DNA from: Deinococcales bacterium
Lineage (GTDB): Bacteria; Deinococcota; Deinococci; Deinococcales; JAAFIG01
DNA: 64,000 bases
Direction of reading: 5' to 3'
Assembly (NCBI GenBank): GCA_013298595.1
Contig: JAAFIG010000006.1
Span: 96,503-160,502, forward strand
The notes under the pieces were generated by a model. That model did not search any database and was not told where the DNA came from. It saw only the letters and a list, made by a program, of their open reading frames with translations. Every line of letters starts with the position of its first letter. Positions within the stretch are counted from its first letter, which is position 1. This document shows, piece after piece, positions 1 to 64,000 of this stretch. A program made the position numbers and the translations under genes.

Positions 1-683
1 CCCGCACCAATGTCCAGAACTGTTTTGCCTGCGCCATTCGGTAAATGCTCGAGCAGCAAAGCACTGGCAGCATCGAGTTTACCCGAAGCAAATGTACCAG
101 CGTGTGCCACAGCTTGTAATTGCTGTCCTCGAGCTTCGACCATAAATTTTTGTGGCTCGAGGGCTGCTGGTTTAGTCGTATTGGTTTTCTCGAGTTTGGC
201 AACTCGAAAGCCTTTACCTCGAGCAATGATTTCGCCATCTCCAAAGAGTTTTATGGCTTCTTTGCAGTACCGATCAAAACCTTTGTCTTTGTCACCTGCT
301 AAAAATGCAGTACCACCATCTTTGGTGGTCTGAAAGGCTTGAAGAATAATCTGCTGCACTCTGGCATTGCCACGTTCACCATTGAGAATCGCCACAGTGA
401 TATCCGCATTTTCCAGCGTTCCAATGGTTAATTTGGTTTTTGCTAGGCAAGAAATTGCAGCTGCACTCGAGTCGGTGGCGCTCACACTTAAACCTTTGGC
501 TTGTAATGCCAATGCGACCGCGCCACCTCTGGCACTTACATCTGCAACAGAACCTGTTAATTTCAAATCCTCGAGTGTTTCCAGTAGTAACACTTGTGCG
601 TATTCGAGGTACGGATAACCTGCAATACCTGCTTTGGTTAGTGCACCATTCTCAAGGGTTTTAGGTTCAAAATAAGTTGTCAT
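1..683 (-). CDS. RsmC-like class I SAM-dependent methyltransferase, C-terminus cut off by window edge
   Basis: The gene reads leftward from an ATG at 683 and runs off the window, leaving about 227 residues. The N-terminal half looks like a degenerate methyltransferase-like domain. It is followed by a segment of the type HAGTFASGKLDAAS and then a Rossmann glycine motif VLDIGAG at the edge. This two-domain plan and the FASGKLD-type lead-in are typical of the RsmC/RlmG family ('methyltransferase small domain'), which methylates guanine in rRNA. The target here cannot be told from sequence. The start ATG overlaps the mutS stop as ATGA, so translation is probably coupled to mutS. The catalytic NPP-type motif lies outside the window. 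Confidence 0.7.
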   Translation of the reverse strand, partial: MTTYFEPKTLENGALTKAGIAGYPYLEYAQVLLLETLEDLKLTGSVADVSARGGAVALALQAKGLSVSATDSSAAAISCLAKTKLTIGTLENADITVAILNGERGNARVQQIILQAFQTTKDGGTAFLAGDKDKGFDRYCKEAIKLFGDGEIIARGKGFRVAKLEKTNTTKPAALEPQKFMVEARGQQLQAVAHAGTFASGKLDAASALLLEHLPNGAGKTVLDIGA

Positions 684-3205
684 AATGTACTCCGTAATTG
701 ACTTTGTAATTGCTCAAGAATTTTCAGAGCATCCAACGGGGTTAAACGAGCAATATCCAACTCGAGAATCTGAGCACTGGTTTGCATGGCAATATCTTCG
801 GATTGTTGTTCTAAGGCTTGTAAAATACTGTTAGCTCGAGTGGTCACAGCGGGTGGTAAACCAGCCAGTTGTGCCACATGCACACCATAACTTTTACTCG
901 CAGCCCCAGGCATAACTTGATGATAAAACCGCAATCCATTCTGGGCTTCTTCTTCGGCAGCCACATGTAAATTACTGATACCCGATAAGGTTGTCTCGAG
1001 CTTTGTTAATTCAAAGTAATGCGTGGCAAACAAAACAGCAGCCTTGGTTTGGGATAGAAATTCTATGGCTGCTTGGGCAATTGCCAGTCCGTCATAGGTA
1101 CCTGTGCCGCGTCCAATTTCATCAAGAATCACAAGGCTGTTGGCAGTCACACCATGCAAAATATGGGCAAGTTCGCGCATTTCGACCATAAAAGTACTGG
1201 CACCACCTGCCAGATCATCCGAAGCTCCAATACGAGTAAAAATACGATCAAAAATTCGCAGTTGTGCGCTTTGGGCAGGCACAAAAGAACCAATTTGTGC
1301 CAACAAAACAACCAACGCCGTTTGGCGCAAAAACGTGCTTTTGCCACTCATATTCGGACCCGTAATGAGTTGGATTCGGCTCGAGTTAGACAGGGTAATA
1401 TCATTAGGCACAAAATTGTCTAAGGTTGTTTCAACCACAGCATGACGAGCTTGTACCACCCTGACTTCACCTGACTCGAGGATGGTTGGTAAAACATACC
1501 CTCGGTTAGCTGCAATATCGGCAAGGTTTGCTAAGACATCCAAATCGGCAAGGGCACTGGAAAGCAGTTGTAAACGTTCAGTATGGTTCGTCAGTTGCGC
1601 TCGTAACTCGAGAAAAACGGTGTATTCTCTGGCTTGGGCGCGTTCTTCGGAATGCAGCACTTCACGTTCTTTTTCTCGTAAATCTTGGCGAGTAAAACGC
1701 ATTCGGTCTTTCAGAGTAGCAACCGCTCGGTAATCATCTGGAACAAGGTGTTTATGGGCATTGGTGATCTCGAGGTAATAACCAAAAATATTATTAAAGC
1801 CAACTTTTAAGCTGTTAATACCAGTTCGCACCCGTTCTGAAGTCTCGAGATGAGCAATCCATGTTCTACCCTCAAGTGCTCTGGCACGGCATTCATCAAG
1901 TTCGGCATCGAAGCCATCGCGGATAAAACCGCCTTCGGTTAAACGCAGTGGCGGGGTTTCGATTAAGGCTGCTCGAATAATTTTGGCAGCGTTGGCAATC
2001 GGGTCTAAACGGGTTTGTAAATCGCGCAGCAACCTTGCATCCAAAGGTTCAAGTAAAACTTTTAATTCTGGTATTAACTCGAGGGTTCGTAACAAAGCAT
2101 TAAAATCTCTGGCATTAGCCCGTTGCATTGCCACTCTGGTAGCAAGTCGCTCGAGGTCATGAGCATGATGCAAAGCCGCCCGAATACTTTTACGACTTTC
2201 GGAATCACGGTGCAAAACACTGACCGCCTCGAGCCGTTCAGCAATCAAATGAGCATCTAATAATGGTGCTCTCAACCAAGCTTTTAAGCGCCGTCGCCCA
2301 GGAGCTGTGCGAGTATCGTTTAATGCACCAAACAATGTGGCACTTTCAGGGGCTGTAGGCGATAACGGCGTAAAAACCTCGAGTGCTCGCAATGCCGCTT
2401 CATCTAAACGCATATGCGCTCCAGGGTCGTACCGTTGCACCCGCCGCACTGCTGGCAAATTGGTATGCTCGAGGACTTTACTGGCATAAGCCAGCACTGC
2501 CCCACAAACCCGTTGCAAAGCCGTGGTCTCGAGCATTGTAGGCGCAGAACCAAATTGTACTGTCAAAGCAGCAATGGCATCGGACAAAGCAAAACTGGCA
2601 CTTGAACGCATAATTGGGAATCTGGCATTAAATTCCTGCATAAACGTAGCATTGTCCTCGAGTTCAGGAGCCAGTAAAACCTCGGCTGGTCGGTACCGCG
2701 ATAATTCATCGTATAATGCCCCTCGGCTTGAAACTTGGCAACAGCGAAATTCACCAGTACTCACATCGAGTAATGCCAGCGCGTACCCATCACCAGAAGC
2801 AACACTGGCAAGAAAATTTTCTTCACCCCGTAAAATATCCTCGAGCGCCACTGTGCCAGGAGTAATAATTTGTGTCACAGCCCGTTCGACCAAACCTTTG
2901 GCTGTACTTGGGTCTTCAACTTGTTCTGCCACTGCAATACGCTGCCCAAGTTTGAGTAAACGCTCGATATGGGTTTCGGCAGCTCTGACAGGAATACCTG
3001 CCATTGGCGTGGAAAAATCCTTAGATTGCTTATGGGTTAAAGTGATATTGAGTAACCTCGAGAGGCGTTCGGCATCCTCACCAAAAGCTTCAAAAAAATC
3101 ACCCACCTGAAATAACAACACATACTCTGCGTACTGATCACGCAACCGCACATACTGCTCGAGCAGTGGCGGCAAAATACCTGAACCTGTTCCCTTCAAC
3201 GACAT
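680..3205 (-). CDS. mutS: DNA mismatch repair protein MutS
   Basis: MutS1 recognises mismatches and small loops and recruits MutL. The 841-residue length is normal for MutS1. The N-terminal mismatch-binding domain has the Phe-x-Glu signature in the GDFFEAF segment near residue 37. The C-terminal ABC-type ATPase has Walker A GPNMSGKST at residues 616-624, the Walker B/signature segment DEIGRGTGTYDG, and the switch-like ATHYFELT. All of this points to the mismatch-repair MutS1 and not the MutS2 family, which lacks the N-terminal domain and carries a Smr domain. It lies 33 bases downstream of the EamA gene and overlaps the following methyltransferase by four bases. Confidence 0.97.
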   Translation of the reverse strand: MSLKGTGSGILPPLLEQYVRLRDQYAEYVLLFQVGDFFEAFGEDAERLSRLLNITLTHKQSKDFSTPMAGIPVRAAETHIERLLKLGQRIAVAEQVEDPSTAKGLVERAVTQIITPGTVALEDILRGEENFLASVASGDGYALALLDVSTGEFRCCQVSSRGALYDELSRYRPAEVLLAPELEDNATFMQEFNARFPIMRSSASFALSDAIAALTVQFGSAPTMLETTALQRVCGAVLAYASKVLEHTNLPAVRRVQRYDPGAHMRLDEAALRALEVFTPLSPTAPESATLFGALNDTRTAPGRRRLKAWLRAPLLDAHLIAERLEAVSVLHRDSESRKSIRAALHHAHDLERLATRVAMQRANARDFNALLRTLELIPELKVLLEPLDARLLRDLQTRLDPIANAAKIIRAALIETPPLRLTEGGFIRDGFDAELDECRARALEGRTWIAHLETSERVRTGINSLKVGFNNIFGYYLEITNAHKHLVPDDYRAVATLKDRMRFTRQDLREKEREVLHSEERAQAREYTVFLELRAQLTNHTERLQLLSSALADLDVLANLADIAANRGYVLPTILESGEVRVVQARHAVVETTLDNFVPNDITLSNSSRIQLITGPNMSGKSTFLRQTALVVLLAQIGSFVPAQSAQLRIFDRIFTRIGASDDLAGGASTFMVEMRELAHILHGVTANSLVILDEIGRGTGTYDGLAIAQAAIEFLSQTKAAVLFATHYFELTKLETTLSGISNLHVAAEEEAQNGLRFYHQVMPGAASKSYGVHVAQLAGLPPAVTTRANSILQALEQQSEDIAMQTSAQILELDIARLTPLDALKILEQLQSQLRSTL

Positions 3206-3238
3206 CAGGCGATTATGACAGGTTTTCTTGAGGATAGG

Positions 3239-4117
3239 TTAGCTTGCCTGAGGTTTTTTTGCCATTGGTAACATATTGTTAATTAAACCAACACCACTAA
3301 AAATAATTGCACACGCCAAAACTTTCTCGAGGGTAATACTTTCTCCCAGAAAAATTCGACTCCAAATCATGCCAAAAATTGGCACAATCAACGTGACCGT
3401 ACTAGCTTGCACCGCGCCAACATCGAGAATTAAACGAAAATACAAAATATACGCCACCGCTGTACAGATCAATGCCAAAGCCACCACACAAAGCACCACT
3501 CGCAAATCTGGCACAGCTCGAGGTAAATCGAAGGGCAATGCAAAAGCCAAAACCACACTCGAAGCAATTTGCGAACCCACCGCTGCTCCAAGCGGTGCAC
3601 CTGCTAAAAACGTTTTAGCAAGATTGCTCGCTAAACCATAAAAAAATGTGGCTGTCAGCATTGCCAGAATACTTAACGTGGTTTGTAAACTTGGCTCGAG
3701 TGGCGACCAACCCACCAGCACAGCCACACCTACAATACCAAGCAGTAAACCCAACCCTCGAGACAACGTAAACTGCCCTTTGAAAAACACCATACCAACT
3801 ACCACACTCCACATTGGCGTTGTCGCATTGAGAATTGCCGCCATCGAAGCAGTTAATTTTAATTGAGCAAAAGCAATCAAAGCAAAAGGCAAACCGCTAT
3901 TTAACACACCAACAATGCCATACCAACGCCAACGATGAACCTCGAGATTAGCTTTAGAAAACACAGCAAAAACCAGTAAAGCCAACCCAGCCAGCAAAAC
4001 TCGAGTTTCGGCTGTCCAGATAGCGCCTAACACAGGCGCAATGATTCGATAAAAAATAAAACTTGCGCCCCAAATAGCCGATAACAACAACAAGCGCAAC
4101 CAATCAGCTTGTTTCAT
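3239..4117 (-). CDS. EamA/DMT-family membrane transporter
   Basis: This is a 292-residue very hydrophobic protein with about ten membrane segments arranged as two tandem EamA repeats, typical of the drug/metabolite transporter superfamily. The first repeat opens with the usual AIWGASFIFYRI-like helix. The second ends in a helix with an F-GE-T segment (IFLGESITLEKV), a common signature of the family. Members export amino acids, metabolites or drugs; the substrate cannot be inferred. It overlaps the upstream ogt gene by four bases (ATGA), so the two are co-translated, but no functional link is evident. Confidence 0.85.
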   Translation of the reverse strand: MKQADWLRLLLLSAIWGASFIFYRIIAPVLGAIWTAETRVLLAGLALLVFAVFSKANLEVHRWRWYGIVGVLNSGLPFALIAFAQLKLTASMAAILNATTPMWSVVVGMVFFKGQFTLSRGLGLLLGIVGVAVLVGWSPLEPSLQTTLSILAMLTATFFYGLASNLAKTFLAGAPLGAAVGSQIASSVVLAFALPFDLPRAVPDLRVVLCVVALALICTAVAYILYFRLILDVGAVQASTVTLIVPIFGMIWSRIFLGESITLEKVLACAIIFSGVGLINNMLPMAKKPQAS

Positions 4118-4626
4118 AAAAACAACCCACTTTGTACAGGTGAACGTTCATGCTCAAGCAACCAGCGTTTGCGCTCCAAACCACCCGCGTACCCTGTTAA
4201 ATTGCCATTCGAGCCAATCACTCGATGACACGGCAAGACCAAACTAATCGGATTTAAACCATTGGTCATGCCAACCGCTCGTACCGCCGCAGGCTGACCA
4301 ATAAACCGTGCTAACTCGAGATAACTCCACGTTTGCCCAATTGGAATTTGTAACAAACCCTGCCAAACAGCTTGCTGAAATACTGTGCCACCCGTATCCG
4401 TGGGGATACCATGCAAAGCCTCGAGCTGCCCAGCGAAATAATCTGCCACCATTTGCGTCCACGGCAAAACCCGAGGTCGTAATGTAAACCCACCAAAGCG
4501 TTTCTCGAGCAATAACTTAATCCGTGCTGAGTTATCCGCAAAATCCAGTAACACCACAGCTTTTTCGTGCGCGACAAGCTGCACCACACCCAATGGCGTC
4601 TCGAGCGAATCCGTCAGTAATTCCAT
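4114..4626 (-). CDS. ogt: Methylated-DNA--protein-cysteine methyltransferase
   Basis: This suicide repair protein transfers the methyl group from O6-methylguanine in DNA to its own cysteine. The protein has 170 residues. The active-site motif PCHRV puts the acceptor Cys at residue 133. It is preceded by the helix-turn-helix region with the Arg-finger segment RAVG near residue 115, and followed by GYAGGLERKRWLLEHE, typical of the family. There is no Ada-type N-terminal regulatory domain, so it is the Ogt/MGMT form. It heads the minus-strand group ogt-EamA-mutS-rsmC-like, which places two DNA repair genes together. Confidence 0.93.
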   Translation of the reverse strand: MELLTDSLETPLGVVQLVAHEKAVVLLDFADNSARIKLLLEKRFGGFTLRPRVLPWTQMVADYFAGQLEALHGIPTDTGGTVFQQAVWQGLLQIPIGQTWSYLELARFIGQPAAVRAVGMTNGLNPISLVLPCHRVIGSNGNLTGYAGGLERKRWLLEHERSPVQSGLFL

Positions 4627-4709
4627 AAACCCATTCTGACCTTTTTATACCACCAATACCATCCAGAACTTGTTAGGCAATTCGCACCGAGTTTGCTACA
4701 CTAACCCCC

Positions 4710-5039
4710 ATGAAACTAATCGTCGTGATCGTCCAAGACACCGACGCAAACGCCCTCATCAAAGCGTTAAGCAAAGAACGGCTCGAGGTCACCAAACTTG
4801 CCAGCACAGGCGGCTTCCTACGCGAAGGCAACACCACCCTCTTAATCGGCGTTGAAGAAGAACGCCTCGAGACTGTCAAAACCATTGTTAAAGAAACTTG
4901 CCGCTCGAGAAAACGCCTTGTCATGCCCACCGCACCCGTCGCTGAGCAACCCGAACCACTGCTCTCCGAACCAGTCGAAGTACCCGTGGGAGGCGCTATT
5001 GCCTTTGTGGTCAACATCGAAGAAACATTTAAAGTCTAA
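4710..5039 (+). CDS. Cyclic-di-AMP receptor (DarA/PstA family, PII-like)
   Basis: This 109-residue protein matches the DUF970 family of c-di-AMP binding proteins, which are PII-like homotrimers first described as PstA/DarA in Firmicutes. Diagnostic segments are the N-terminal MKLIVVIVQDTDAN, the T-loop start TGGFLREGNTT and the C-terminal strand PVEVPVGGAIAFVV. The family has no enzymatic activity and relays c-di-AMP levels to partners that are still poorly known. The gene stands alone, divergent from ogt, with an 83-base gap. A TACACT -10-like element lies about 12 bases upstream of the ATG, but no convincing -35 was found. Confidence 0.9.
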   Translation: MKLIVVIVQDTDANALIKALSKERLEVTKLASTGGFLREGNTTLLIGVEEERLETVKTIVKETCRSRKRLVMPTAPVAEQPEPLLSEPVEVPVGGAIAFVVNIEETFKV

Positions 5040-5202
5040 ACTCGAGCCAAAAACGCGGGCTTTCGCTCATATCTGGCTTCTTGACCCTAACAGCGGCATC
5101 TCACAGTCTTGGGGCGCTTGAACCTTTTTTGTTTGGAAAACGACAGGGCAAACCGAACAACCCTCTCCCGCACTTTTTGGCGACACAATAGATCGAGAAA
5201 AG

Positions 5203-5311
5203 CTCGTGGAAAATAGATAAATACGTTTTGGCAAGGGAGGGGACAAGCCCCAACATTGGCATGTAGGGGCGACCCTTGTGGTCGCCCTGCCCAAGTATTC
5301 TCGTGGAAAAT
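5203..5311. repeat. Palindromic repeat unit between 12-base direct repeats in the 5040-5344 gap
   Basis: The 305-base gap between the c-di-AMP receptor gene and the EF-G-like gene holds no gene. At 5263-5290 is a palindrome with arms GGGGCGACC and GGTCGCCC. It belongs to a family of GTAGGGGCGA-type repeats widely dispersed in bacterial genomes; translated, it gives the familiar artefact GDHKGRPY. Related copies occur at 22117-22146 and 57011-57038. The direct repeat CTCGTGGAAAAT lies on both sides, at 5203-5214 and 5300-5311. This could be a target duplication or chance. Confidence 0.55.
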
Positions 5312-5344
5312 GTAACCGTAGAACGAGCCATGCTTTGCCCCAAA

Positions 5345-7387
5345 TTAGGCTCGAGCCGCTTCAATCTCGAGTTTTCTGGCAGCAATAATTTTTTCGGTGT
5401 TGCTATTTGGCACATCTGCATAATGATCAAATTTGAGGCTGTACACGCCGCGTCCACCTGTTAAACTTTGCAAATCAGGACTGTAATTTTGCACTTCAAC
5501 GAGGGGAACAAAAGCACTGATGGTGGTGACTGCACCATCAGGATCCATACCTTGAACTCGAGCACGACGGGTGTTTAAATCTCCAAGTATTTCGCCTGTG
5601 AATCGTTCTGGTACCCGAACCTTTATCAGCATGATCGGCTCGAGTAAAACGGGTTTGGCTTTTTCCATAGCCGCACGAAATGCCAGAATCCCCGCTTGTT
5701 TGAATGCCATGTCCGAGGAGTCCACATCGTGGTACGTACCTTCGTAGACAACAGCTTTGATGTTCTGAACTAAAAACCCACCGAGTACGCCATGATGTCT
5801 GGCTTCTTCGACACCTTTTTCAACACTGGGAATGTATTTGGTGGGAATGGTGCCACCCACCACTTCGGAAGTGAACATAAAATCTTCTAAACTTGGCTCG
5901 AGCCGCAACCAACAATCGCCGTATTGCCCATGTCCACCACTTTGTTTTTTGTGTTTACCTTGAGCACTGGCAGTGCCACGCACGGTTTCACGATACGCAA
6001 TTTTAGGTGTGCTTGCCAGCACATTGACTCCCATAATGCCAAGTTTTTCGACTGCCACCTCGAGATGGGTATGCCCCATGCCCTCGAGTACACTTTCGGC
6101 AGTTTCGGTATTGCGAACCAAATGCAGTGTGGGGTCTTCCTCGAGTAATTTACCAATGGCATTGCCGAGTTTGTCCTCGTCAGCTCGAGAAGCTGCATGA
6201 ATGGCAATGCTGGTGATCGGTTCGGGTAACTCGAGTTGACCAAAATCAATTGGGTTATGAGGATCACAGATGGTATCACCTGTATGCAAATCAGGGATTT
6301 TGGTAATCGCCCCAATCATACCTGCTTCGAGTGCAGGCACTTCTTTTAAATCTTTACCAACCAAAGTGTAAACATGAGCGGGCTTAAAATCCTTATCGGT
6401 GTGGGAATTATGCACAGTGTCACCTGCGTGTAAAACCCCGCTCCAGACACGCACATAGGCAACCTTACCCACAAAAGGGTCGATTGCCACCCGCCACACG
6501 CGAGCTGATAACGACGCAGACAGACTGCATTCACGCTCCGAGCCATCAGTACCAATCACAGGGCGGCGTTCTTCGGGGGCGCGTAAGCAACCACGCATCA
6601 GATCAAGCAGCGGTTCGATACCAACCACACCCGTACCAGACACAGGAATCACAGGAAAAATTTCGGCATGATGCACCGCATCTAAAAAAGCTTGTTGCAA
6701 AACAGCATCCTCGATGGGTTCATCGGCTAAGTACAACTCGAGCAATGCCTCATTGGTTTCAACGATTGCCTCGAGCAACTTAGTGCGTTGCGCCCGAGCC
6801 GACTCTGCCAATGCTTCGGGAATAGAACTCACCTCGAGTTTATTGTTCTGGTAGACATACGCTTTATCGGATAGTAAATCGATCACCCCACGGAAATTGC
6901 TTTCCGTACCAATTGGAATAAAAACTGCCACAGCATGCGGTGAAAGCGTATCTTGCACACTGGCAAGCGCTCCAAAAAAACTGGCATGCTCACGATCTAA
7001 TTTAGTAATTGCAACCACTCGAGGTAAACCAAATTCCTCGGCAGTATTCCAAACACGTTCTGTACCAACTGCCACACCTGCTGTGGCATTGACCACCACC
7101 AAGGCACTATCAGCAGCCCGCAATGCCCCGCGAATCTCACCGACAAAATCGGCATACCCAGGGGTATCCAACAAATTAAAATGCGTATCCTGCCAAACCA
7201 CATTCAGCACACTGGTGGCAATACTCATGCCACGGCGTTTCTCGGCTTCAGAAAAATCTGAGGCACTCGAGCCATCCTCGACCCGACCCAAACGATCCTT
7301 AGCACCACTTTTATACAGTAACGCCTCGACCAAACTTGTTTTCCCAGCCGCATTATGACCAACCACTGCCACATTTCTGACGCGCAT
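5345..7387 (-). CDS. Elongation factor G-like GTPase
   Basis: This 680-residue translational GTPase is related to EF-G. The P-loop is GHNAAGKT at residues 10-17 and the G3 box is DTPGYADF. The G4 box reads TKLD where canonical EF-G has NKxD. EF-G domains II to V follow, including the domain IV segment KKQSGGHGQYGD. This matches the 'elongation factor G-like' paralogue found beside true EF-G in Deinococcus/Thermus and Actinobacteria. Its role is unclear and may be a non-canonical translocase or ribosome rescue factor. An in-frame GTG lies two codons upstream, but the ATG at 7387 is preferred because GAGTGAGG precedes it at normal distance. Confidence 0.9.
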   Translation of the reverse strand: MRVRNVAVVGHNAAGKTSLVEALLYKSGAKDRLGRVEDGSSASDFSEAEKRRGMSIATSVLNVVWQDTHFNLLDTPGYADFVGEIRGALRAADSALVVVNATAGVAVGTERVWNTAEEFGLPRVVAITKLDREHASFFGALASVQDTLSPHAVAVFIPIGTESNFRGVIDLLSDKAYVYQNNKLEVSSIPEALAESARAQRTKLLEAIVETNEALLELYLADEPIEDAVLQQAFLDAVHHAEIFPVIPVSGTGVVGIEPLLDLMRGCLRAPEERRPVIGTDGSERECSLSASLSARVWRVAIDPFVGKVAYVRVWSGVLHAGDTVHNSHTDKDFKPAHVYTLVGKDLKEVPALEAGMIGAITKIPDLHTGDTICDPHNPIDFGQLELPEPITSIAIHAASRADEDKLGNAIGKLLEEDPTLHLVRNTETAESVLEGMGHTHLEVAVEKLGIMGVNVLASTPKIAYRETVRGTASAQGKHKKQSGGHGQYGDCWLRLEPSLEDFMFTSEVVGGTIPTKYIPSVEKGVEEARHHGVLGGFLVQNIKAVVYEGTYHDVDSSDMAFKQAGILAFRAAMEKAKPVLLEPIMLIKVRVPERFTGEILGDLNTRRARVQGMDPDGAVTTISAFVPLVEVQNYSPDLQSLTGGRGVYSLKFDHYADVPNSNTEKIIAARKLEIEAARA

Positions 7388-7608
7388 AACCACCTCACTC
7401 GGTAATCAGGGCTTAGAAGCGAACAACGCCATCGGTACTATGGATGGTAAAAGTCTACACCTTCGAGCGAAGCGAGGTGATAAAAAGATAAAGAGAGTTC
7501 AGGGTAAAGACTTTTGCAGAAACTAGAAGAATTAAATCGTATTGAGCGAAGTAAACTGCAATCCCGAGATACCTTGACAATTTGATAGGCTATTTGTAAG
7601 GTTTTGCC

Positions 7609-8261: not shown

Positions 8262-8262
8262 G

Positions 8263-9165: not shown

Positions 9166-9277
9166 GGCAGCTGATTGTAACAGGAAAAAAAGGCAGAAAG
9201 CAGTTTTAACCAGAAAATACTAACCGATGAACGATACGATGTTTAGGAATTTAAGCGTTATTCACACAGGGAGGCAC

Positions 9278-12070
9278 ATGCTCATACAACAATTACTCAA
9301 AGAAGCTAAAAACCCCAACACCAGCCCAGAACGCCTTTCTCAGTTAGGACTACTCGAAATAGAAGTAGCTCGAGCAGTGGCAAAGAATATCAATACACCT
9401 TCTGAAACCCTAAAAACTCTTAGCTCGAGTAAAGATGATACGACCAGAAAATACGTGGCTGGCAATCCAAACACACCACTCGAGGTTTTTAGTAAGTTAG
9501 CAATGCAATTTCCCAAAGAAGTGCTGAATAACCCATTGCTACCAATTTTATTGATGTCCGATGCGAATTTTCTCGAGCAATTCCCAAGTGCCAGTTTGAA
9601 AAACATGCTTAAACGACCCGAGATGCCCGTAGAATTTATTGAATGGGCAGCGCAAAACGCAGATTGGAAAGTTTGTGAAGGAATTTTACAGAATGAAAAG
9701 GCGACTTTGAGTGCTTTGCACAGTCTCGAGCAACGTTTTTCAGATCAGGTAACAAAAATTCAAACACATCTAGCATTTTCAAACTCAATAGTTGCACCAG
9801 TTTGGACAACCCAAGCACTGATAGAGGATGTCTTAGCAAAACGTGCGACTTATTCTCTGCCTGATGGAAGATTACGTCAAATTGGTTGGTTTTCTCGAGA
9901 TGAAAACAGCAAAGCTATTTTACCTCTTTTAACCTATGCCAAGTGCGAAATTGCTAGTGATCCAAATACACCAATTGCTACATTACAAACTTTGGCTCGA
10001 GATATGTATGATGATGTACAAATTTGTGTGGCAAGTAACCCTAATACACCAATTGAGGTTTTGCAAGAATTAACTTTAGCAAGTGATACGGTACGGTTGA
10101 GTTTAGCAAAAAATCGTTCAGCACCTATTCAATTGTTACAAGTTCTAGCAAATGATTCCTCACCAGATGTTCGGCGTGCTGTCACGGAAAATCCGATTTC
10201 TCCAATCGAATTGCGAGCAAGTATTCTTGATGGTGTAGGTGTTAAAGACCATATTGAAAACTCGATTAAAACACTAATTGCTTTTGCCTTAAGTCCTTTT
10301 CTGCGTTCCAGATGGGTGGCAGCAGGTAATCCTAAAACACCAAGTGAGATTTTGCATTTATTAGCAACTGATACCAATTCTGATACGCGTAGGCTGGTTG
10401 CGAATAATAATGCTACTGCTCCTGACACACTAAAGCTGTTGGTTGCACCAAGCGAAGATAATCATATTCGGACTTGTGCTGTTACAAATCCGAATATACC
10501 AATTGAAATTTTGCAACAAATGATTCGTGAACAAAGTTTTGCTTTAGACGTTGCTTACCATTCCGACATTCCAATTAGTATTTTGCAAGTATTAGCAACA
10601 AATACCGATGCTCGTGTTCGTACAAATGTGGCTAAGAACCCTAGTACCTCAGTAGAAACGCTTTGTTTCATGTATGAAAAAGAATCTGATTTAGGGGTAA
10701 TTGGCACTATTGCATTAAATCCAAATACGCCAATCGAAATACTCGAGAAAATCTTTGTCAATCATGTAAATCTTCATCCAGAACTCGCGCAAAATCCAAG
10801 TGCGTCAAGTGAACTGCTTATCAAGTTGGCACAAGGCAAGGGTTTACATATTCGTAATCTGGTCAGCTTGCATCCTGCTACACCAGCTGAAGTTTTATTT
10901 CATATTGTCAGTAGAACAAATTCTATTGGTCGGGCATATATTGCACAAAATCCAAAGGCACCTATCCAATTGCTGTCTCAATTAGCTGAAGATGAATCTT
11001 ATGGTGTTCGAGCAGCAGTGGCACAAAATCCTAACACAACCACCCAATCGCTATCGCAACTTGCAGAAGACGAACACGAAAAAGTACGACAATACGTTGC
11101 TAAAAACATGCTCACTCCAATCTCTACTTTAGAAAAATTAGCAACTGATAGCATCGTAGAAATTCGTCAAGCAGTTGCTAAAAACCCTAGCACTCCAACT
11201 GCTTTATTAGCTATTTTAGCCCAAGATGCCAAAGTTGAAGTCCGTTGGTATGTTGCAATTCATACCAATACAGCTATTGAAACACTGCAATTACTGGCTC
11301 GAGATAAAGTAGCGATAAGTTCATGGATTGTAAAACACCCCAAAGCTCCTATTGAAGCCCTGATACAAGTTGACAGTTCCACTCGAGTACCACTCGAGAC
11401 ATTACAGCAATTAGCTTTGGAGAAAAGCAAGTGGATTCGGGCTGGTGTAGCTAAAAACGTTCACACTCCAATGGCATTATTGCAACAATTGCTAACGGAT
11501 AAAGATGCTGATGTTCGACTCGAGATTGCCCTGAATCGCAATTCACCTTTAGAAATCCTGAGCACACTAGCAAAAGATACGAATTGGGAAATCCGTGTCG
11601 GTGTTGCTGGAAACGAGAATGCCAGTTCAGACTTGCTCATGCTAATGGCATCAGACGAAAATCTAAAAGTTCGACTCGAAGTTGCAAAAAACACGCAAAC
11701 GCCTTTTGTTGCATTGCAAATACTCGCAATAGATAAGGATTCCAAAATTCAAGAAACAGCATTACAAAATTATGCGTTATCTCGAGAACAACGTTCGCAG
11801 TTACTCCACAACGCAAACTTGGATTTTGCAGTCGAACTCGAGAAATTGCTTGGTTCAATCAGTAAATCCGAGGAAGGGTTAGTGGCTTATTTGCATCCAC
11901 AAGCACCAACTCCCATATTGGCGAAAGCAGGACGACATGATGACCCACTGATTCGGGCAGCTGTTGCACTACACCCAAAAACACCAGAGAACACCTTGAA
12001 AGTGCTCTGCCAAGACGGCGATGCTCGAGTTCGCGCCACTGCTCTGGCTCGAATGAAAGACACACCATGA
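9278..12070 (+). CDS. Giant leucine-rich-repeat-variant (LRV) protein
   Basis: Of 930 residues, nearly all is a tandem array of about thirty units of roughly 24 residues. The consensus is NPNTPIEVLQ-LA-D----VR--VA. This is the LRV helical repeat first seen in Azotobacter, related in shape to HEAT/ARM solenoids and likely a protein-binding superhelix. The N-terminal Fe-S cluster of the Azotobacter protein is not seen. I chose ATG 9278 because GGGAGG lies just before it; an in-frame ATG at 9227 has no ribosome-binding site. The stop overlaps the AAA ATPase start (ATGA). I infer a scaffold or substrate-recognition subunit for the AAA/VWA pair that follows. Confidence 0.88.
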   Translation: MLIQQLLKEAKNPNTSPERLSQLGLLEIEVARAVAKNINTPSETLKTLSSSKDDTTRKYVAGNPNTPLEVFSKLAMQFPKEVLNNPLLPILLMSDANFLEQFPSASLKNMLKRPEMPVEFIEWAAQNADWKVCEGILQNEKATLSALHSLEQRFSDQVTKIQTHLAFSNSIVAPVWTTQALIEDVLAKRATYSLPDGRLRQIGWFSRDENSKAILPLLTYAKCEIASDPNTPIATLQTLARDMYDDVQICVASNPNTPIEVLQELTLASDTVRLSLAKNRSAPIQLLQVLANDSSPDVRRAVTENPISPIELRASILDGVGVKDHIENSIKTLIAFALSPFLRSRWVAAGNPKTPSEILHLLATDTNSDTRRLVANNNATAPDTLKLLVAPSEDNHIRTCAVTNPNIPIEILQQMIREQSFALDVAYHSDIPISILQVLATNTDARVRTNVAKNPSTSVETLCFMYEKESDLGVIGTIALNPNTPIEILEKIFVNHVNLHPELAQNPSASSELLIKLAQGKGLHIRNLVSLHPATPAEVLFHIVSRTNSIGRAYIAQNPKAPIQLLSQLAEDESYGVRAAVAQNPNTTTQSLSQLAEDEHEKVRQYVAKNMLTPISTLEKLATDSIVEIRQAVAKNPSTPTALLAILAQDAKVEVRWYVAIHTNTAIETLQLLARDKVAISSWIVKHPKAPIEALIQVDSSTRVPLETLQQLALEKSKWIRAGVAKNVHTPMALLQQLLTDKDADVRLEIALNRNSPLEILSTLAKDTNWEIRVGVAGNENASSDLLMLMASDENLKVRLEVAKNTQTPFVALQILAIDKDSKIQETALQNYALSREQRSQLLHNANLDFAVELEKLLGSISKSEEGLVAYLHPQAPTPILAKAGRHDDPLIRAAVALHPKTPENTLKVLCQDGDARVRATALARMKDTP

Positions 12071-46178: not shown

Positions 46179-46742
46179 ATGACTAAATTACTTGACCCAG
46201 AACGTGAAAAAATTGAAGAAAAAGCACTAAAGGTTCTCGAGACTGCCCAAGTGTTAATCTCTGAGCCGCCTATTGATTTAATGCGTGTAGCTGAATCAAT
46301 GGAGATTAAAGTGTATTCCGCGCGTTTTAATGACCCAACTATTTCTGGGCTTGTTACCACAGACCCTAGACATAATCCTGCACCTGTAGAAGCAGGCAAA
46401 ACAGCAACTGTTTTTGTGAATATGGATCAACCAGCAACACGAAGACATTTTACGGTAGCCCATGAATTAGGTCATATTGCCCTTGGTCATCACGGAACTG
46501 GAATCTTAAATAGAGCTATTGGGCATCCTTATGAACCTCAACAAGAACGTGAGGCAAATGCTTTTGCAGCAGGTTTACTCATGCCAGCTCAGCCATTCAT
46601 TTCTGCCTTATATAGACAAAACGACATTGTACGAGTTGCACTTACTTTCGGTGTTTCAGTAGAAGCAGCAACGATCAGGGCTAGTATCCTTAGTGGAAAG
46701 CTCAATTTGGATTTTGGGAATTTACAGGATGTTCGTTTGTGA
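46179..46742 (+). CDS. ImmA/IrrE-family metallo-endopeptidase
   Basis: This 187-residue zinc protease has HELGH at residues 95-99 and the third-ligand block EREANAFAAGLLMP near 123. Family members cleave repressors: ImmA acts on the ICEBs1 repressor, and Deinococcus IrrE/PprI acts on DdrO after DNA damage. This protein lacks the IrrE HTH and GAF-like domains and the usual N-terminal HTH of phage-type proteins. AAGGAG precedes the start. It ends in a GTGA overlap with the membrane-protein gene. It is likely horizontally acquired, with only one CTCGAG. Confidence 0.87.
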   Translation: MTKLLDPEREKIEEKALKVLETAQVLISEPPIDLMRVAESMEIKVYSARFNDPTISGLVTTDPRHNPAPVEAGKTATVFVNMDQPATRRHFTVAHELGHIALGHHGTGILNRAIGHPYEPQQEREANAFAAGLLMPAQPFISALYRQNDIVRVALTFGVSVEAATIRASILSGKLNLDFGNLQDVRL

Positions 46743-47380
46743 AGGATAGTCAAGATACCGAAGAAAACGCACTGCTTGAAGAGTCCGAATCTACTTCTAC
46801 AAATAGTATAGATATAATAGATCAAAGTTCTGTCGTTTTGTATGAGCAAAAACCGATAAACCTTCACGCCGCTGTCGGTTCTGAGGTTTCTGCAAGTGGT
46901 GCTTCATTTCCTGGATTTGTTGAAGGTCTCGCAGAAGCGGTGAAAGATTCAATTATCGCAAGTACTGAATTAACAAGAGCCAATGCAGAGTCAATGAAAA
47001 CAAAAGCGCTTTCCGAATACAAAGTCGCAGAAGCAACTTCAGCAAAATTACAATCAGAAGCAGCTAGAATAGATCAGGATACTCGAAAAGAAAAAATTTC
47101 TAATGACAATGTTCAAGTATCACAGCGATTATACAAATTGGTGATATGGGTTTTGCCTGTCATAGGATTTGGATTTTTAGGTTTCGATATTTACTTCATT
47201 TATTCAGGAATTGTAGAACTTGGAGTTATTCAGTTCATTCAAAATAATTGGATAATAGTGCTGTTTTTCCTAGCTGCATCAATTGCTTCAATAATACTAC
47301 CATTCGCACCTTTAGTTCAAAATTTTGCGAATGTGATAGCTAAATTAAAAAATCAGAGTAATGATGAGGATAAAAAGTAA
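46739..47380 (+). CDS. Coiled-coil protein with two C-terminal membrane helices
   Basis: This 213-residue protein starts with GTG overlapping the ImmA stop. Residues 1-60 are acidic, Ser/Glu-rich and probably disordered. Residues about 65-120 form a polar helical segment, likely coiled coil. Two membrane helices (about 131-157 and 170-195) are joined by a short loop, and the C-terminal tail is basic. I recognise no family. The N-terminus is predicted to be cytoplasmic. As the translationally coupled partner of a protease, it may be its substrate, anchor or effector. No CTCGAG occurs in this gene. Confidence 0.65.
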   Translation: MKDSQDTEENALLEESESTSTNSIDIIDQSSVVLYEQKPINLHAAVGSEVSASGASFPGFVEGLAEAVKDSIIASTELTRANAESMKTKALSEYKVAEATSAKLQSEAARIDQDTRKEKISNDNVQVSQRLYKLVIWVLPVIGFGFLGFDIYFIYSGIVELGVIQFIQNNWIIVLFFLAASIASIILPFAPLVQNFANVIAKLKNQSNDEDKK

Positions 47381-47382
47381 AA

Positions 47383-47414
47383 AACATGTCTCGAGATAAC
47401 TCTCGAGACATGTT
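47383..47414. terminator. Bidirectional intrinsic terminator with CTCGAG in both arms
   Basis: AACATGTCTCGAG and CTCGAGACATGTT (13 pairs) close a six-base loop. T-rich tracts lie on both sides, so the stem can end both the plus-strand ImmA operon and the minus-strand alpha operon. Confidence 0.88.
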
Positions 47415-57589: not shown

Positions 57590-57594
57590 ATGAC

Positions 57595-57909: not shown

Positions 57910-58292
57910 TACAACACCTCCGGTGCAAGTGAAACAATCTTCATGAACTTGCGGTCACGAAGTTCTCGAGCGATTGGTCCGAAGACACGGGTGCCACGAG
58001 GTTCGCCTTCTTTGTTGATGATCACAGCGGCATTGCGGTCAAAGCGGATGGCACTGCCATCGGCACGTTTAACGACTTTGCTGGTACGAACAACCACACA
58101 TTTAACAACATCGCCTTTTTTGACGGTGCCTCGAGGGGCGCATTCTTTGACGCTGGCAATGATGACATCGCCTACGCCAGCGTATTTTTGGTTGCCGCTA
58201 CCACGAGCTAATCCGCCCATGACACGAAAACACATGACTTTTTTAGCGCCTGTGTTATCGGCAACATCGAGTTCTGTAAAAGATTGAATCAT
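57909..58292 (-). CDS. rplN: 50S ribosomal protein L14
   Basis: This 127-residue protein has the universally conserved [17 protein letters not shown] start and [20 protein letters not shown] end. It contacts the 30S at bridge B8. The gene lies two bases after rpsQ. Confidence 0.98.
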
Positions 58293-58294
58293 GT

Positions 58295-58543
58295 CTAGTC
58301 CTTCTTCGACTCGACCAAACGATTAACTTTCCACGTTTTGGTCTTGCTGATTGGGCGCACGGCAATGATTTCAACGATGTCACCTGTTTTGAATTCGTTG
58401 TTTTCATCGTGCGTGGCATACTTCTTCGAGCGGGTCACGACTTTACCGTACAAGGGGTGGGTGAACTTGCGTTCGACCTTGACCGAGATGGTTTTGTCAG
58501 CTTTGTCAGACACGACTGTGCCAATAAAGGTTTTACGAGCCAT
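58295..58543 (-). CDS. rpsQ: 30S ribosomal protein S17
   Basis: This 82-residue protein has [34 protein letters not shown], an OB-fold 16S-binding protein. Its start shares one base with the rpmC stop. Confidence 0.98.
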
Positions 58544-58767
58544 TACTTCACCTTCTTTTCAAGACCAGCATGGCGCTTTTCAGTAGCGATGGTCAAGAGT
58601 TGCGCGATTTCTTTGCGAAGAAGGTTGAGTCTCGAGGTGTTTGGCACAGTACTCACGACTTTTTGGAAGCGGAGTTTCATCAACTCTTCTTTACGGGCTG
58701 CAACTTCCTTGTCGAGATTGGCAACGTTCATCTCGCGGAAGGCTTTTAGGGACTCACTGCGCTTCAT
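58543..58767 (-). CDS. rpmC: 50S ribosomal protein L29
   Basis: This 74-residue helical hairpin at the tunnel exit reads [20 protein letters not shown], then [15 protein letters not shown]. It overlaps rplP by 14 bases. Confidence 0.96.
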
Positions 58768-59179
58768 CGTATACCTCTCGAGTCACGAACTTCGTTTTGA
58801 TTGGCAATTTATGTCCAGCCAAACGGAAAGCTTCGCGGGCTTGTTCTTCGGTTACACCTTCAACCTCGAACATGATGCGTCCGGGTTTAACCACGGCAAC
58901 CCAGTATTCGACAGCACCTTTACCGGATCCCATGCGGGTTTCGGCTGGTTTTTTGGTGATTGGTTTGTCTGGGAAAATGCGGATGTAAATTTTACCGCCG
59001 CGCTTAAAGAAGCGGCTCATGGTGATACGGCAGGCTTCGATGTGGTTGCTGCGAATCCAAGCGGCTTCCATAGCGACCATACCGAAATCTCCGAAGGCGA
59101 TGTAATCTCCGCCTTTGGTGGCACCACGCATACGACCCTTCATTTGCTTACGGAATTTCATGCGTTTAGGAAGTAACAT
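58754..59179 (-). CDS. rplP: 50S ribosomal protein L16
   Basis: This 141-residue protein begins [19 protein letters not shown] and has [15 protein letters not shown]-type blocks and [23 protein letters not shown]. It touches the A-site tRNA and is assembled late. It overlaps rpsC by one base. Confidence 0.98.
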
Positions 59180-59964
59180 TATGCGCCTCCCTTCTCTGGA
59201 CGACGAGCACGTGCACCTGGACGAGTGCGATTGCCACCTGCTCCACCACGACGATCATCACCACCACTCTTAGCGGCATCAGAGCCACCTCGAGTCATTG
59301 GACGTGGGGCTGGGCGGGTACCATCTTGTTTGCCAATCACTTCGCCGTTAAAGACAATCACTTTGATACCGAGTTTACCGTAGGTGGTTAAGGCTTCAGC
59401 AAATCCGTAGTCAATGTCGGCACGCAATGTATGAAGTGGCACGCGACCTTCCATACGGGTTTCTTTACGACCTTGTTCAGCGCCACCAAGACGACCCGAA
59501 ACAATGATCTTGCAACCCTTTGCCCCAGATTCCATGACTTTTTGCACAGCTTGTTGCATAGCGCGCTTATAGGCAAAACGGCGTTCGATTTGTTCGGCAA
59601 TACGTTGGGCAACCAGTGGTGCACTGGTATTAGGATTGCCAACTTCTTCGACATTAACAGCCACAGTGCTGGTATTCCCAACAACAGCAGTTAAGGTGTC
59701 GCGCAATTTCTTGATGTTAGCGCCGTCTTTACCAATCACCACACCAGGCTTTGCAGCCTTAACGGTAACATTGACTTGATGGGCAGCCCGTTCGATATTG
59801 ATGGTAGCCACGCCAGCGTTATTCAGTTCTTTGGCAACCATTTTACGGATTTTGCTGTCTTCGACAATCAATTTCGCGTAGTCTTTTTTGCCAGCGAACC
59901 ATTTGCTGGTGTGTTCTTTGTTAATCCCGATGCGTAGACCGAGTGGATTGATTTTATTACCCAT
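59179..59964 (-). CDS. rpsC: 30S ribosomal protein S3 with Gly/Arg-rich C-terminal tail
   Basis: This 261-residue protein has a type II KH domain ([17 protein letters not shown]) and the C-terminal domain with [33 protein letters not shown] final tail of about 45 residues carries RGG, DDRRGG and [11 protein letters not shown], longer than the roughly 215-235 of E. coli/Thermus. It is the mRNA-entry helicase-site protein. Confidence 0.97.
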
Positions 59965-60338
59965 TATCGCTTCCCACCTTTACCGCCAGGACGAGTCTTA
60001 CCTTCTGGCATTTCCTCGAGAATAATGGTGACATGGCTGGTGCGCTTCAACAAACCGTCGCCACGACCACGAGCACGAGGAATAATCCGTTTCAGTGTTG
60101 GACCTTCGTTGACAAAAGCACTCTTGATGTAGAGTTGCTCCTCGAGCATTTCAAAGTTGTTGGTTGCATTGGCTTTGGCGCTCTTTAGGACTTTCGCAAT
60201 TGGTGTGGTTGCACCTTTTGGGATGAACTTCAAGAGGTCTTCTGCATCTTTGACGGTTTTGCCACGAATCAGGTCAATCACCAAACGCATTTTGCGAGGT
60301 GTGATGCGGACAAATTTAGCTTGGGCAAAGGCTTCCAT
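59964..60338 (-). CDS. rplV: 50S ribosomal protein L22
   Basis: This 124-residue protein has FVRITPRKMRLVIDLIRGK and the tunnel beta-hairpin RIIPRARGRGDGLLKRTSHVTIIL. Stop and start overlap by one base on both sides. Confidence 0.98.
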   Translation of the reverse strand: MEAFAQAKFVRITPRKMRLVIDLIRGKTVKDAEDLLKFIPKGATTPIAKVLKSAKANATNNFEMLEEQLYIKSAFVNEGPTLKRIIPRARGRGDGLLKRTSHVTIILEEMPEGKTRPGGKGGKR

Positions 60339-60625
60339 TATTTCTTACCTGTTGCTTTAGCGTCTTTGCCACCACTGTGACCCTTAAAGACTCGAGTTGG
60401 CGAGAATTCGCCGAGCTTATGACCGACCATATTCTCAGAAACATAGACTGGTACGTGTTGCTTGCCGTTATGCACAGCTAAGGTTAAACCAATCATTTCT
60501 GGGACGATGGTGCTGCGGCGCGACCAAGTTTTGATGACACGCTTATCGTTTTTAGCGGTAGCGGCATCGACTTTGTCGAGCAGGTGGAGATCCACAAATG
60601 GACCTTTTTTGGCACTCCTTGGCAT
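60338..60625 (-). CDS. rpsS: 30S ribosomal protein S19
   Basis: This 95-residue protein begins [19 protein letters not shown] and has [38 protein letters not shown]. It forms bridge B1a. Confidence 0.98.
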
Positions 60626-60638
60626 TATTTAACTCCTT

Positions 60639-60655
60639 GCTGGGGTATGCCCAGC
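60639..60655 (-). promoter_or_regulatory. Small hairpin upstream of rpsS
   Basis: GCTGGG and CCCAGC pair across five bases in the 76-base rplB-rpsS spacer. It has no T-tract on the minus strand. Confidence 0.3.
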
Positions 60656-60701
60656 GCAGATCAGGGGGTATCGCCACAATCGCAGCGACCCGACCTGTCC
60701 T

Positions 60702-61538
60702 TTATCTCGAGCTCTTACGACGAGAAATGATGAAACTACTCGAGGTGTTACGCTTACGACGTGTCTTACCACCTTTAGCGATTTTGCCCCACGGGGAAAC
60801 TGGTGTACGACCAGTTGGAGCGCGACCCTCACCACCACCGTGTGGGTGGTCAACAGGGTTCATTGAACTGCCGCGTTGATGTGGTTTGTTGCCCATCCAA
60901 CGTTGACGACCTGCTTTACCAATGACCACATTTTTGTGATCGGCATTGCCGACAACGCCAACAGTGGCATAGCACTCGGTGTGCACCCGACGCAATTCGC
61001 CTGAAGGTAAACGCAGCACCACATAATCGCCTTCTTTACCTTGGACTTGAGCGCTGGTACCAGCACTACGAGCCATTTTTGCACCACGTCCAGGCACCAA
61101 TTCGATGCTATGAACAACAGTACCAACAGGAATAAAACGCAAAGGCATGGCATTGCCAACTCGAGGTTCAGCTTCTGGACCCGACACAATGCGGCTACCA
61201 ACTTCTAAACCATCTGGCGCGAGGATGTAACGCTTTTCGCCATCGAGGTAATGCAACAAAGCAATGTTTGCCGAGCGGTTTGGATCGTATTCGATTGCAG
61301 CGACTTTGGCAGGAACGCCACCTTTGTCACGGCGTTTGAAATCAATCACACGGTATAAACGCTTGTGTCCGCCACCGATGAAACGGCTGGTGGTACGACC
61401 TGTGTTGCTACGACCACCGGTTTTTGGCAATGGCGCAGTTAACGACTTTTCAGGACGCTTCTTGGTGAGGTTACTAAAGTCAAGGGTCGTGATGTAACGA
61501 CGGCTTGGCGTATACGGACGATATTCTTTGGTTGGCAT
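60702..61538 (-). CDS. rplB: 50S ribosomal protein L2
   Basis: This 278-residue protein near the peptidyl-transferase centre has [18 protein letters not shown]-like blocks and [19 protein letters not shown] with the essential His. It is basic and ends in [11 protein letters not shown]. Confidence 0.98.
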
Positions 61539-61539
61539 T

Positions 61540-61830
61540 TTAGTTTGCCCCCTCGAGCGCTTCGATCTTTTGTCCTTCGGCTAACTGCACAATTGCCTTG
61601 CGGCGAGCAGCAGTTAAACCAGCAAAACGACCAACGCGCTTTTGCGTACCGCGCACGTTCTGCACATTCACGGACACAACCTTAACGCCAAATGCTTTTT
61701 GCACAGCGTTCTTGACTAAAGTTTTATTGGCTTGTGGGTGAACCCAGAAGCTGTACTTGCCATCCGCCATACCAGCGTAGGCTTTTTCACTCGAGACAGG
61801 CTCGAGCAGTACGTCATAAACGGAGTTCAT
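61540..61830 (-). CDS. rplW: 50S ribosomal protein L23
   Basis: This 96-residue tunnel-exit protein docks trigger factor and SRP. It has [45 protein letters not shown]. It overlaps rplD by four bases. Confidence 0.97.
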
Positions 61831-62873
61831 GCGTCACCTTCTTCTCTGCGTCCGCCAACCAATTTCTCGGTCAGGGCAACAAATCCTGCTTCGTCACCAC
61901 GGGCTAAGTAACCAGCTTGTTCTGCCCATGTACCAAGGCTCGGGTGTGAGCGCATACCAGCAGCCTCGAGAGCAGCTTTTAAGCTATCTTCGCTGGCAGC
62001 AGCTAATTCGGCAAATGTGGTAATACCAGCGGCAATCAAAGCATCATTGATTTTTGGTCCGATGCCTTCAACACGTTTCAAGTCATCGCCAGCAGCCACT
62101 TTCTTAGCAGCTTTTGGTGCAGCTTCGACAGGAGCAGCTTTGACAGCTTGGACTTCGGTATGAGCAGCTTTTGGTGCTTTTTCGACTTTTGGTGCTTTTG
62201 CAAGAGAAGTAGCTTTTGGAGCGGCTTTTAATGCAGCAGCTTTACCTTCGGCTTTATCAGCTTGATCAAGCTTGAAATTCAAGCTTGTGCCAACAGCCTC
62301 GAGCACAGCTTTGTCTGCCACCAATTGCTCGTGACGCAAGACATCGTAGCAGTTTAAGCCAGCGGCTTTGACAGCTGTGACCCAATGCAAGTTCTTGGCT
62401 GCACGGATTGCCATTTCGTCGTTGGTGACTAAAAATATGCGTTCCGAACCATCTAAACCATGTTGTTTAGCCCAGGCTAAAAAGCTTTTGGTTTTGCCAT
62501 CAAGGTTAAAACCATCGACAGCTAAAACTTTACCTTCAGCAACTCGGCTCGAGACTGCCATAGCTAAGCCAAGCTTACGGACTTTTTTCGGCAAGGTGTA
62601 ATCGTAACTGCGTGGTTTAGGACCGAAAGCCGCGCCACCACCGACATAAATCGGAGCGGAACGATCACCGTGACGAGCATTACCTGTGCCTTTTTGGCTG
62701 TACAACTTCTTACCTGTACGGCTGACTTCGGCTCGAGTTTGGGTACTGGCTGTGCCACGACGACGCTTGGCGAGTTGCCAATTAACAACTTCGTACAAGA
62801 CATGGGTTTTTGCTAACGGGAGGTTCAGTTCTAAGCTGCCTGGGTTTTTACCCACAACATTGATACTCGACAT
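61827..62873 (-). CDS. rplD: 50S ribosomal protein L4 fused to a helix-hairpin-helix domain
   Basis: The normal L4 core is residues 1-205 ([35 protein letters not shown]). It is followed by an Ala/Lys/Pro-rich linker (about 206-262, with AAPK and KAPK repeats). A C-terminal domain (about 263-348) opens [31 protein letters not shown], a helix-hairpin-helix fold common in DNA-binding proteins. L4 usually stops near 205-210. The continuous frame and unchanged neighbour rplW show that this is a real fusion. The linker should leave the extra domain projecting from the subunit. Confidence 0.96.
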
Positions 62874-62875
62874 GA

Positions 62876-63496
62876 TTACTTCCCTCCCTTCTTGGCTTGT
62901 TTAATGACCACAAGACCACCATTTGCGCCAGGAATTGCGCCTTTAATTAACAGCAAATTCTCGGCAGCACGAACCTCAACAACCTCGAGGTTCTGGGTGG
63001 TAATGCGTTCAACACCATAATGACCAGGCATTTTCTTACCTTTAATAACCCGACCTGGGGTTTTACGAGCGCCAATCGAACCACCACGACGATGCCACTT
63101 TTTCGCACCGTGCGAAGCAGGACCACCTTGGAAGTTCCAGCGCTTCATCACACCAGTAAAACCGCGACCTTTGCTGGTACCAACCACATCAACTTTTTCG
63201 CCAGCGGCAAAAATTTCGGCAGTAATGGTGTCAGCTTCAGGCGCGTAATCACGAAATTCACGCAAATGACGCATAGGAGCGCTTTTTGCTTTCTCGAGAT
63301 GACCAAGTTCTGGTTTTGAAAGAGCTTTTTTCGGGGTTTCACCGAAACCGATTTGTACTGCACTGTAACCATCGTTTGCTGGGGTTTTACGCTGCACAAC
63401 TGGGCAGGGTCCCGCCAGCACGACAGTCACTGGGATAACCTTGTCATTTTTCCAGACTTGGGTCATACCGACTTTTGTGCCGAGGATGCCTTTCAT
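62876..63496 (-). CDS. rplC: 50S ribosomal protein L3
   Basis: This 206-residue protein begins [26 protein letters not shown] and has [45 protein letters not shown]. It is an early 23S assembly protein. It overlaps rpsJ by four bases. Confidence 0.98.
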
Positions 63497-63813
63497 GCAG
63501 CACCTCCTACCGTTTTAACTTCGATTTCAACACCACTTGGCAAATCCAAGGTGCTTAAACTTTCGATAGTCTTTTTGGTTGGGTTGGTGATATCAACAAG
63601 GCGATTGTGGGTGCGAAGCTCAAAGTGCTCACGGCTATCTTTGTGCTTGAACGGTCCACGAATCACAGTGAAACGACGAATACGTGTTGGCAACGGAATT
63701 GGTCCAGCCACATCTGCGCCACTACGCTTGACAGCATCCACGATTTTCGCGGCGCTCGAGTCTAACGAGCGGTGGTCAAAGCCACGCAATTTAATACGAA
63801 TTTTAGGTCCCAT
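63493..63813 (-). CDS. rpsJ: 30S ribosomal protein S10
   Basis: This 106-residue protein has [18 protein letters not shown], then [42 protein letters not shown] 63813 has GGAG at the right spacing. S10 is also the NusB partner in antitermination. Confidence 0.98.
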
Positions 63814-63834
63814 GCTTACTCCAGACGACAAAGT

Positions 63835-63875
63835 ACCGCGCAGAGGTGATCAAACCCGTGCGCGGTGTATTTTTT
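63835..63875 (+). terminator. Terminator-like stem in the tuf-rpsJ spacer, oriented on the plus strand
   Basis: ACCGCGCA and TGCGCGGT pair across 16 bases and are followed on the plus strand by GTAT and a run of T. Both flanking genes are on the minus strand, where the T-run precedes the stem. It may be an mRNA processing stem, or a terminator for an antisense transcript. Confidence 0.45.
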
Positions 63876-64000
63876 TTACTCAAGGATTTCTGTGACAACA
63901 CCAGCACCGACAGTACGACCACCTTCACGAATTGCGAAACGCAACTCTTTCTCCATAGCAATCGGTTTAATCAATTCAACTTCAAAATTAATTTGATCAC
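63876..64000 (-). CDS. tuf: Elongation factor Tu, C-terminal end only
   Basis: The last 40 residues of EF-Tu are present: [23 protein letters not shown], then [11 protein letters not shown] and TAA at 63876-63878. The rest lies beyond the window. The tuf-rpsJ order is the usual one. Confidence 0.93.

Follow-up and report, generated by a model that had tools for sequence, protein, structure and literature searches.

A highly iterated CTCGAG palindrome in Deinococcales genomes and associated phages

Why should a single six-base palindrome, CTCGAG, recur every 169 bp on average in a bacterial genome? The question is raised by a 64-kb stretch of DNA from a member of the Deinococcales (positions 1–64000, the whole stretch analyzed, hereafter the window). 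The initial annotation had noticed ten copies in the first kilobase and called the word highly iterated. Exactly ten are counted there (positions 48, 128, 156, 189, 218, 466, 570, 761, 835, and 995), and the window contains 377 copies, at 12–33 per 4 kb and with a longest CTCGAG-free gap of 1,154 bp (46236–47390); base composition would give 13.3 copies and a first-order Markov model 7.3. The excess, 52-fold over the Markov expectation, is larger than claimed and not confined to the window, as the whole genome (4,582,226 bases) contains 27,159 copies of CTCGAG and 15 of the reversed control word GAGCTC. The explanation we favor, tentatively and at somewhat less than even chances, is that CTCGAG is a motif of the highly iterated palindrome (HIP) class under a uniform per-site drive from a putative CTCGAG-binding factor.

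CTCGAG is by far the commonest of its word class. The runner-up among palindromic hexamers in the window, CAATTG, has 45 copies, and in a 464-kb sample CTCGAG reaches 29.5 times the composition expectation vs. 2.5 times for the next palindrome. Other CG-rich palindromes, whose equal frequency would have spoken against a special word, are nearly absent; GGGCCC, GGCGCC, CGGCCG, CCGCGG, and AGGCCT all count 0 in 464 kb. In samples of three genomes from two genera (G000, G001, and G003), 40–54% of the palindromic hexamers other than CTCGAG have observed-to-expected ratios below 0.2 vs. 2% of non-palindromes, and in the same genomes GGCC occurs at 0.01 and CCGG at 0.13–0.28 of expectation. CTCGAG is thus the outstanding exception in genomes purged of many other palindromes. 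Its copies are dispersed singly over the genome. The flanking bases are only weakly informative, so CTCGAG is not part of a longer repeat, and as a perfect palindrome it has no orientation.

The motif was also said to occur in coding and non-coding DNA and in every codon frame, and this holds. In 858 kb of the window’s genome, with genes called mechanically as the longest non-overlapping open reading frames, the density is 5.8 per kb in coding and 5.9 per kb in non-coding DNA, and all three codon phases are used (2628, 1111, and 841 copies). An essential translation gene is not spared, since the elongation factor G-like gene at 5345–7393 (minus strand, assigned by Pfam) carries 15 copies (7.3 per kb).

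About half of all CTC and about half of all GAG codons in the genome lie within CTCGAG. It spells 66–76% of the Leu-Glu pairs, when codon usage predicts a fraction of 0.02–0.05, and in the other frames it is used in 39–62% (frame 1) and 36–44% (frame 2) of the places where the peptide permits; its use in permitting contexts is 15–38 times the codon-usage expectation. The context-controlled odds ratio at Leu-Glu is 54, 56, and 19 in three species, from which the scaled per-site strength, taken as the natural logarithm of the odds, would be about 3–4. Multiplying the background expected from composition by the same odds factor predicts the non-coding density to within about twofold.

The proteome is marked as well. 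Leu-Glu dipeptides are 2.2–2.3 times as frequent as expected in three species vs. 0.95–0.97 for Glu-Leu, and Leu-Glu reaches 1.09 and 1.19 in the control genomes G004 and G034, respectively. Surplus Leu-Glu alone accounts for about 0.9% of the dipeptides sampled. Because Leu-Glu is raised and Glu-Leu is not, it is DNA on which the pressure acts, with changes in amino acids as a consequence.

Comparison of species at 75% nucleotide identity shows that CTCGAG is maintained between them, as it is exactly conserved in 60% of cases vs. 20% for other hexamers. At conserved Leu-Glu it is kept in 81% (G001) and 86% (G003); for other dipeptides, the codon pair survives in 4–42% of cases. The one-step transition neighbors of CTCGAG are enriched and the transversion neighbors mostly less so; the former may be either decay products or partly functional sites. 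Restriction or repair of near-cognates was considered and rejected, as it predicts their depletion, but the transition neighbors are enriched instead.

Who carries the motif? A Deinococcota-like host had been suspected, and MutS, encoded by a CTCGAG-rich mismatch repair gene at 680–3205 (minus strand, assigned by Pfam), places it in the Deinococcales, closest to two Deinococcales metagenome-assembled genomes (MAGs; 70% and 56% identity) that are both CTCGAG-rich. We surveyed 111 genomes of the phylum for CTCGAG density relative to GAGCTC. All four species of the window’s family have about 6 per kb, with GAGCTC nearly absent. Beyond it the density is graded: about 6–8, 3.6, and 0.3 per kb in three genera of the sister family f2 (g11, g8, and g4), about 1.4–3.4 per kb in genera g13, g20, and g21 of family f5, about 2 per kb in genus g28 of family f3, and not above the control word in the large genus g7.

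As base composition varies between genomes, the odds of CTCGAG at Leu-Glu codon pairs are a fairer measure than density. They are 19–56 in the window’s family, with codon context controlled, and, computed without that control in the wider set, about 100 in G012, 11–12 in G008, G052, and G101, 2.9 in G044, and below 1 in G034 and G004. The trait therefore occurs widely in the order at graded strength, and some genera either lost it or never acquired it. No report of a CTCGAG motif in Deinococcota was found in the open-access literature, subscription papers being outside the scope.

Neighboring sites affect each other at short range. Pairs of CTCGAG 6–20 bp apart were observed 386 times vs. 966 expected (0.40); pairs are weakly reduced up to about 65 bp and are at or slightly above expectation farther out, with no longer-range structure in the pair correlation. 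The short-range exclusion is also found in G012 and G052, and is weaker in G008. The probability that Leu-Glu is spelled CTCGAG depends likewise on the distance to the nearest site, being 0 at 6 bp, about 0.3 at 9–12 bp, and about 0.65 at 21–30 bp, with a plateau of about 0.79 from 70 to 450 bp that has no trend. The preference thus fails within about 20 bp and is independent of the nearest site beyond about 70 bp. Hairpin avoidance was rejected as the cause because its effect is too weak; in coding DNA, hexamers of equal GC content drop only to about 0.7–0.9 when paired in inverted orientation. In extent, about 20 bp, the exclusion zone resembles the footprint of a protein. From the flat plateau it seems that each CTCGAG is valued independently of the next, and this weighs against selection for coverage, for mismatch-repair reach, or for one signal per taken-up fragment.

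The motif is not limited to chromosomes. A viral scan with a triple-CTCGAG pattern and A/T flanks found the contig IMGVR_UViG_3300049491_000613 (24.7 kb), which encodes portal, capsid, terminase, RecT, DnaB, and a C5 methyltransferase; with the same triple-site pattern and no flank constraint, the matches listed were GC-rich phages. The contig has 138 copies of CTCGAG (5.6 per kb) and zero of GAGCTC, shows the same avoidance by lacking 20 of the 64 palindromes, and encodes 78 Leu-Glu vs. 37.6 expected, an excess measured in this one of two phages. Its methyltransferase shares 74–89% identity with that of the second phage. The latter lies on a 71-kb contig in the G003 bin; the 20 kb read from this contig belong to a phage or prophage, with genes for major head protein, portal, terminase, and primase, and carry 5.25 CTCGAG per kb. 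CTCGAG is sparser on the head-gene side of both phages than elsewhere in them. Nineteen phage contigs with related terminases (26–35% identity) have 0.11 per kb. As the two associated phages have 5.3–5.6 per kb, the force reaches phage DNA. DNA able to spell CTCGAG cheaply tends to do so, whether coding or non-coding, chromosomal or of an associated phage.

None of the searches of the viral collection, made with the portal, capsid, terminase, and methyltransferase, brought up a close relative of the 24.7-kb contig. Another candidate, L435 (a 1,732-bp piece from an IMG/VR contig of 53.9 kb), was rejected as a HIP genome because it is a local repeat, with 25 CTCGAG in about 600 bp at the contig end and the rest poor. 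Incidentally, the C5 methyltransferase of the G003 phage (L450:9436–11355; G003 C40:29436–31355) is interrupted: an intein-like insertion, containing Hint and LAGLIDADG domains, follows residue 71 and is absent from the close homolog in the viral contig.

In the uniform per-site drive that we favor, a putative cellular protein recognizing CTCGAG and occupying about 20 bp would supply the force, and alleles with CTCGAG would win slightly over near-cognate alleles. They could do so through a small additive benefit per bound CTCGAG or, as we judge somewhat more likely, through heteroduplex mismatches being resolved toward the CTCGAG-bearing strand. Such heteroduplexes would form among a cell’s multiple genome copies or between recombining phage genomes, and both routes would look alike in equilibrium. 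The binding factor, the conversion step, and polyploidy are parts of the mechanism that we infer. Four points weigh against this drive. The CTCGAG-binding protein is still putative; polyploidy of the host is assumed by analogy with better-known Deinococcota; the exclusion is not significant in the phages (16 pairs vs. 19.8 expected); and the enrichment of transition neighbors is not expected at strict equilibrium, for which graded recognition or recent weakening may account. A more far-reaching proposal, possible though we hold it unlikely, is that of a second independent HIP system outside cyanobacteria, with a binding factor and biased allele conversion in multi-copy genomes in place of a methyltransferase, which doubles proteome Leu-Glu and is imposed on the host’s phages, so that the motif would be a residence signature for host, virus, and imported DNA.

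Foremost among the alternatives, and in our estimate an unlikely one, is a resident CTCGAG methyltransferase that marks the site while methyl-directed mismatch repair ratchets near-cognates into it, a model proposed by Elhai for cyanobacteria (PMC4390886). There, a matching methyltransferase accompanies the HIPs, and orphan CTCGAG methyltransferases exist elsewhere, e.g., in Nocardia (PMC4752239). CTTGAG, in 3.8-fold excess at Leu-Glu in G000, could be a scar of 5-methylcytosine deamination; this is suggestive, but among substitutions between orthologues, C-to-T changes at the CpG of CTCGAG are not in excess. The conserved orphan enzyme that the initial annotation suggested looking for did not appear, as scans of PF02384, PF00145, PF01555, PF07669, and PF02086 gave no methyltransferase common to all carriers, within the limits set by MAG completeness (91–96%) and divergent families. 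Many methyltransferases did turn up in these scans; a PF05063 scan matched nothing, controls included, and is uninformative. One C5 enzyme (L025) was rejected as the driver because it occurs in 4 of the 111 genomes only (G000, G001, G012, and G102). The methyltransferase loci read in G008 are CTCGAG-poor and are therefore recent arrivals, and some restriction-modification genes lie in the longest CTCGAG-free gaps (L049, and a C5 gene on G001 C246). The density is also about six times the model’s set point of roughly 1 per kb, and sites do not depend on kilobase distance. Methylation itself is compatible with the data, but a resident methyltransferase does not appear to be required by them. Separately, a TaqI-like adenine methyltransferase adjoins a 307-aa protein without family match at L014:534–2958 (G000 C11), possibly a new restriction enzyme.

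If CTCGAG were instead a landmark for mismatch-repair entry, nucleoid organization, or recombination, what would count is that some site be nearby. Its genome-wide presence and the scarcity of closely spaced sites accord with such a role, which had been listed among the possible jobs, but spacing for coverage is unsupported and we consider it improbable; spelling at Leu-Glu is flat from 70 to 450 bp (though a weak trend might be hidden by local heterogeneity), pair correlations show no structure at longer range, and phages carry CTCGAG too.

Pure mutation bias toward CTCGAG, without benefit or conversion, would hit all DNA in the cell, phages included. However, it must raise many substitutions, transversions among them, only when they complete the hexamer, and we know of no enzyme that does so. 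As conservation of CTCGAG is as strong as its creation, we give this bias quite a small chance.

That molecular drive has spread CTCGAG as an uptake signal for natural transformation is very unlikely, although this role too had been listed. Many Deinococcota are transformable, and known uptake signals likewise leave marks on proteomes. On the other hand, uptake sequences are depleted in phage DNA, which uptake does not select, and here two phages carry CTCGAG at host density, which makes an uptake signal unlikely. Sites show no dependence on spacing at the scale of fragments, and known uptake signals are far from six bases and 6 per kb. Finally, the ordinary spelling of Leu-Glu as CTC-GAG in GC-rich genomes might point to an artefact, whether of composition or codon preference or introduced by cloning linkers or assembly. 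This reading has practically no chance and is already refuted by the data: the host has 45% GC, CTCGAG is equally dense in every frame and between genes, CTC and GAG are otherwise minor codons, the excess is missing from the controls G034 and G004, and sites are conserved across separately assembled species.

The motif marks recently imported DNA, through stretches that lack it, and is a cheap marker for such genes and for the hosts of uncultured phages. In G000, CTCGAG-free stretches of 2.6–3.8 kb, mostly AT-rich, were noted at C66:57588–61146, C34:76247–80000, and C1:38492–41099, with genes of restriction-modification, polysaccharide type, or pilin type. Elsewhere in the window, a short intergenic sequence at 5263–5308 (GTAGGGGCGACC...) is an interspersed repeat with many copies in G001 and in G003, and 9227–12070 encodes a 947-aa protein made mostly of leucine-rich-repeat-variant and HEAT-like repeats.

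For about 30 years HIP1 in cyanobacteria has lacked an established cause. A second phylum with graded strength lets models based on methyltransferase, uptake, coverage, and drive be separated; several of these are already disfavored by density, phage carriage, spacing independence, and the 20-bp exclusion zone. The new case also exemplifies a force at the level of DNA by which amino acids are changed at thousands of positions.

Among known systems, XhoI/PaeR7I-type restriction-modification shares the recognition sequence, but such restriction leads to site avoidance, whereas here there is saturation and no shared enzyme was found in the five families scanned. A Chi-like site is non-palindromic and oriented along replichores, unlike the perfect palindrome CTCGAG. 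The uptake sequences of Neisseria and Haemophilus are 9–12 bp long, not palindromic, and present at about 1 per kb. They resemble CTCGAG in being abundant genome-wide, also in coding DNA, and in leaving a proteome imprint; CTCGAG differs in being phage-borne and free of spacing dependence. HIP1 (GCGATCGC) is closest: it too is a short, GC-rich palindrome that far exceeds its chance frequency in coding and non-coding DNA all over the genome and is conserved among relatives. It has eight bases and occurs in cyanobacteria at roughly 0.5–2.5 per kb, whereas CTCGAG has six and occurs in Deinococcales at about 6 per kb, with no shared methyltransferase found, presence in associated phages, and a strong proteome imprint. 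Single cyanobacteria have the alternate HIPs GGCGCC, rCCGGy, and GCsGC (PMC4390886), likewise a different palindrome in the place of HIP1; those are sporadic in single strains, whereas CTCGAG extends across a whole family and, graded, the order. The likeness to HIP1 with a different sequence, proposed at the outset, is borne out by palindrome counts and dispersal: CTCGAG behaves like HIP1 but is not HIP1, and is a HIP-class motif in a new phylum.
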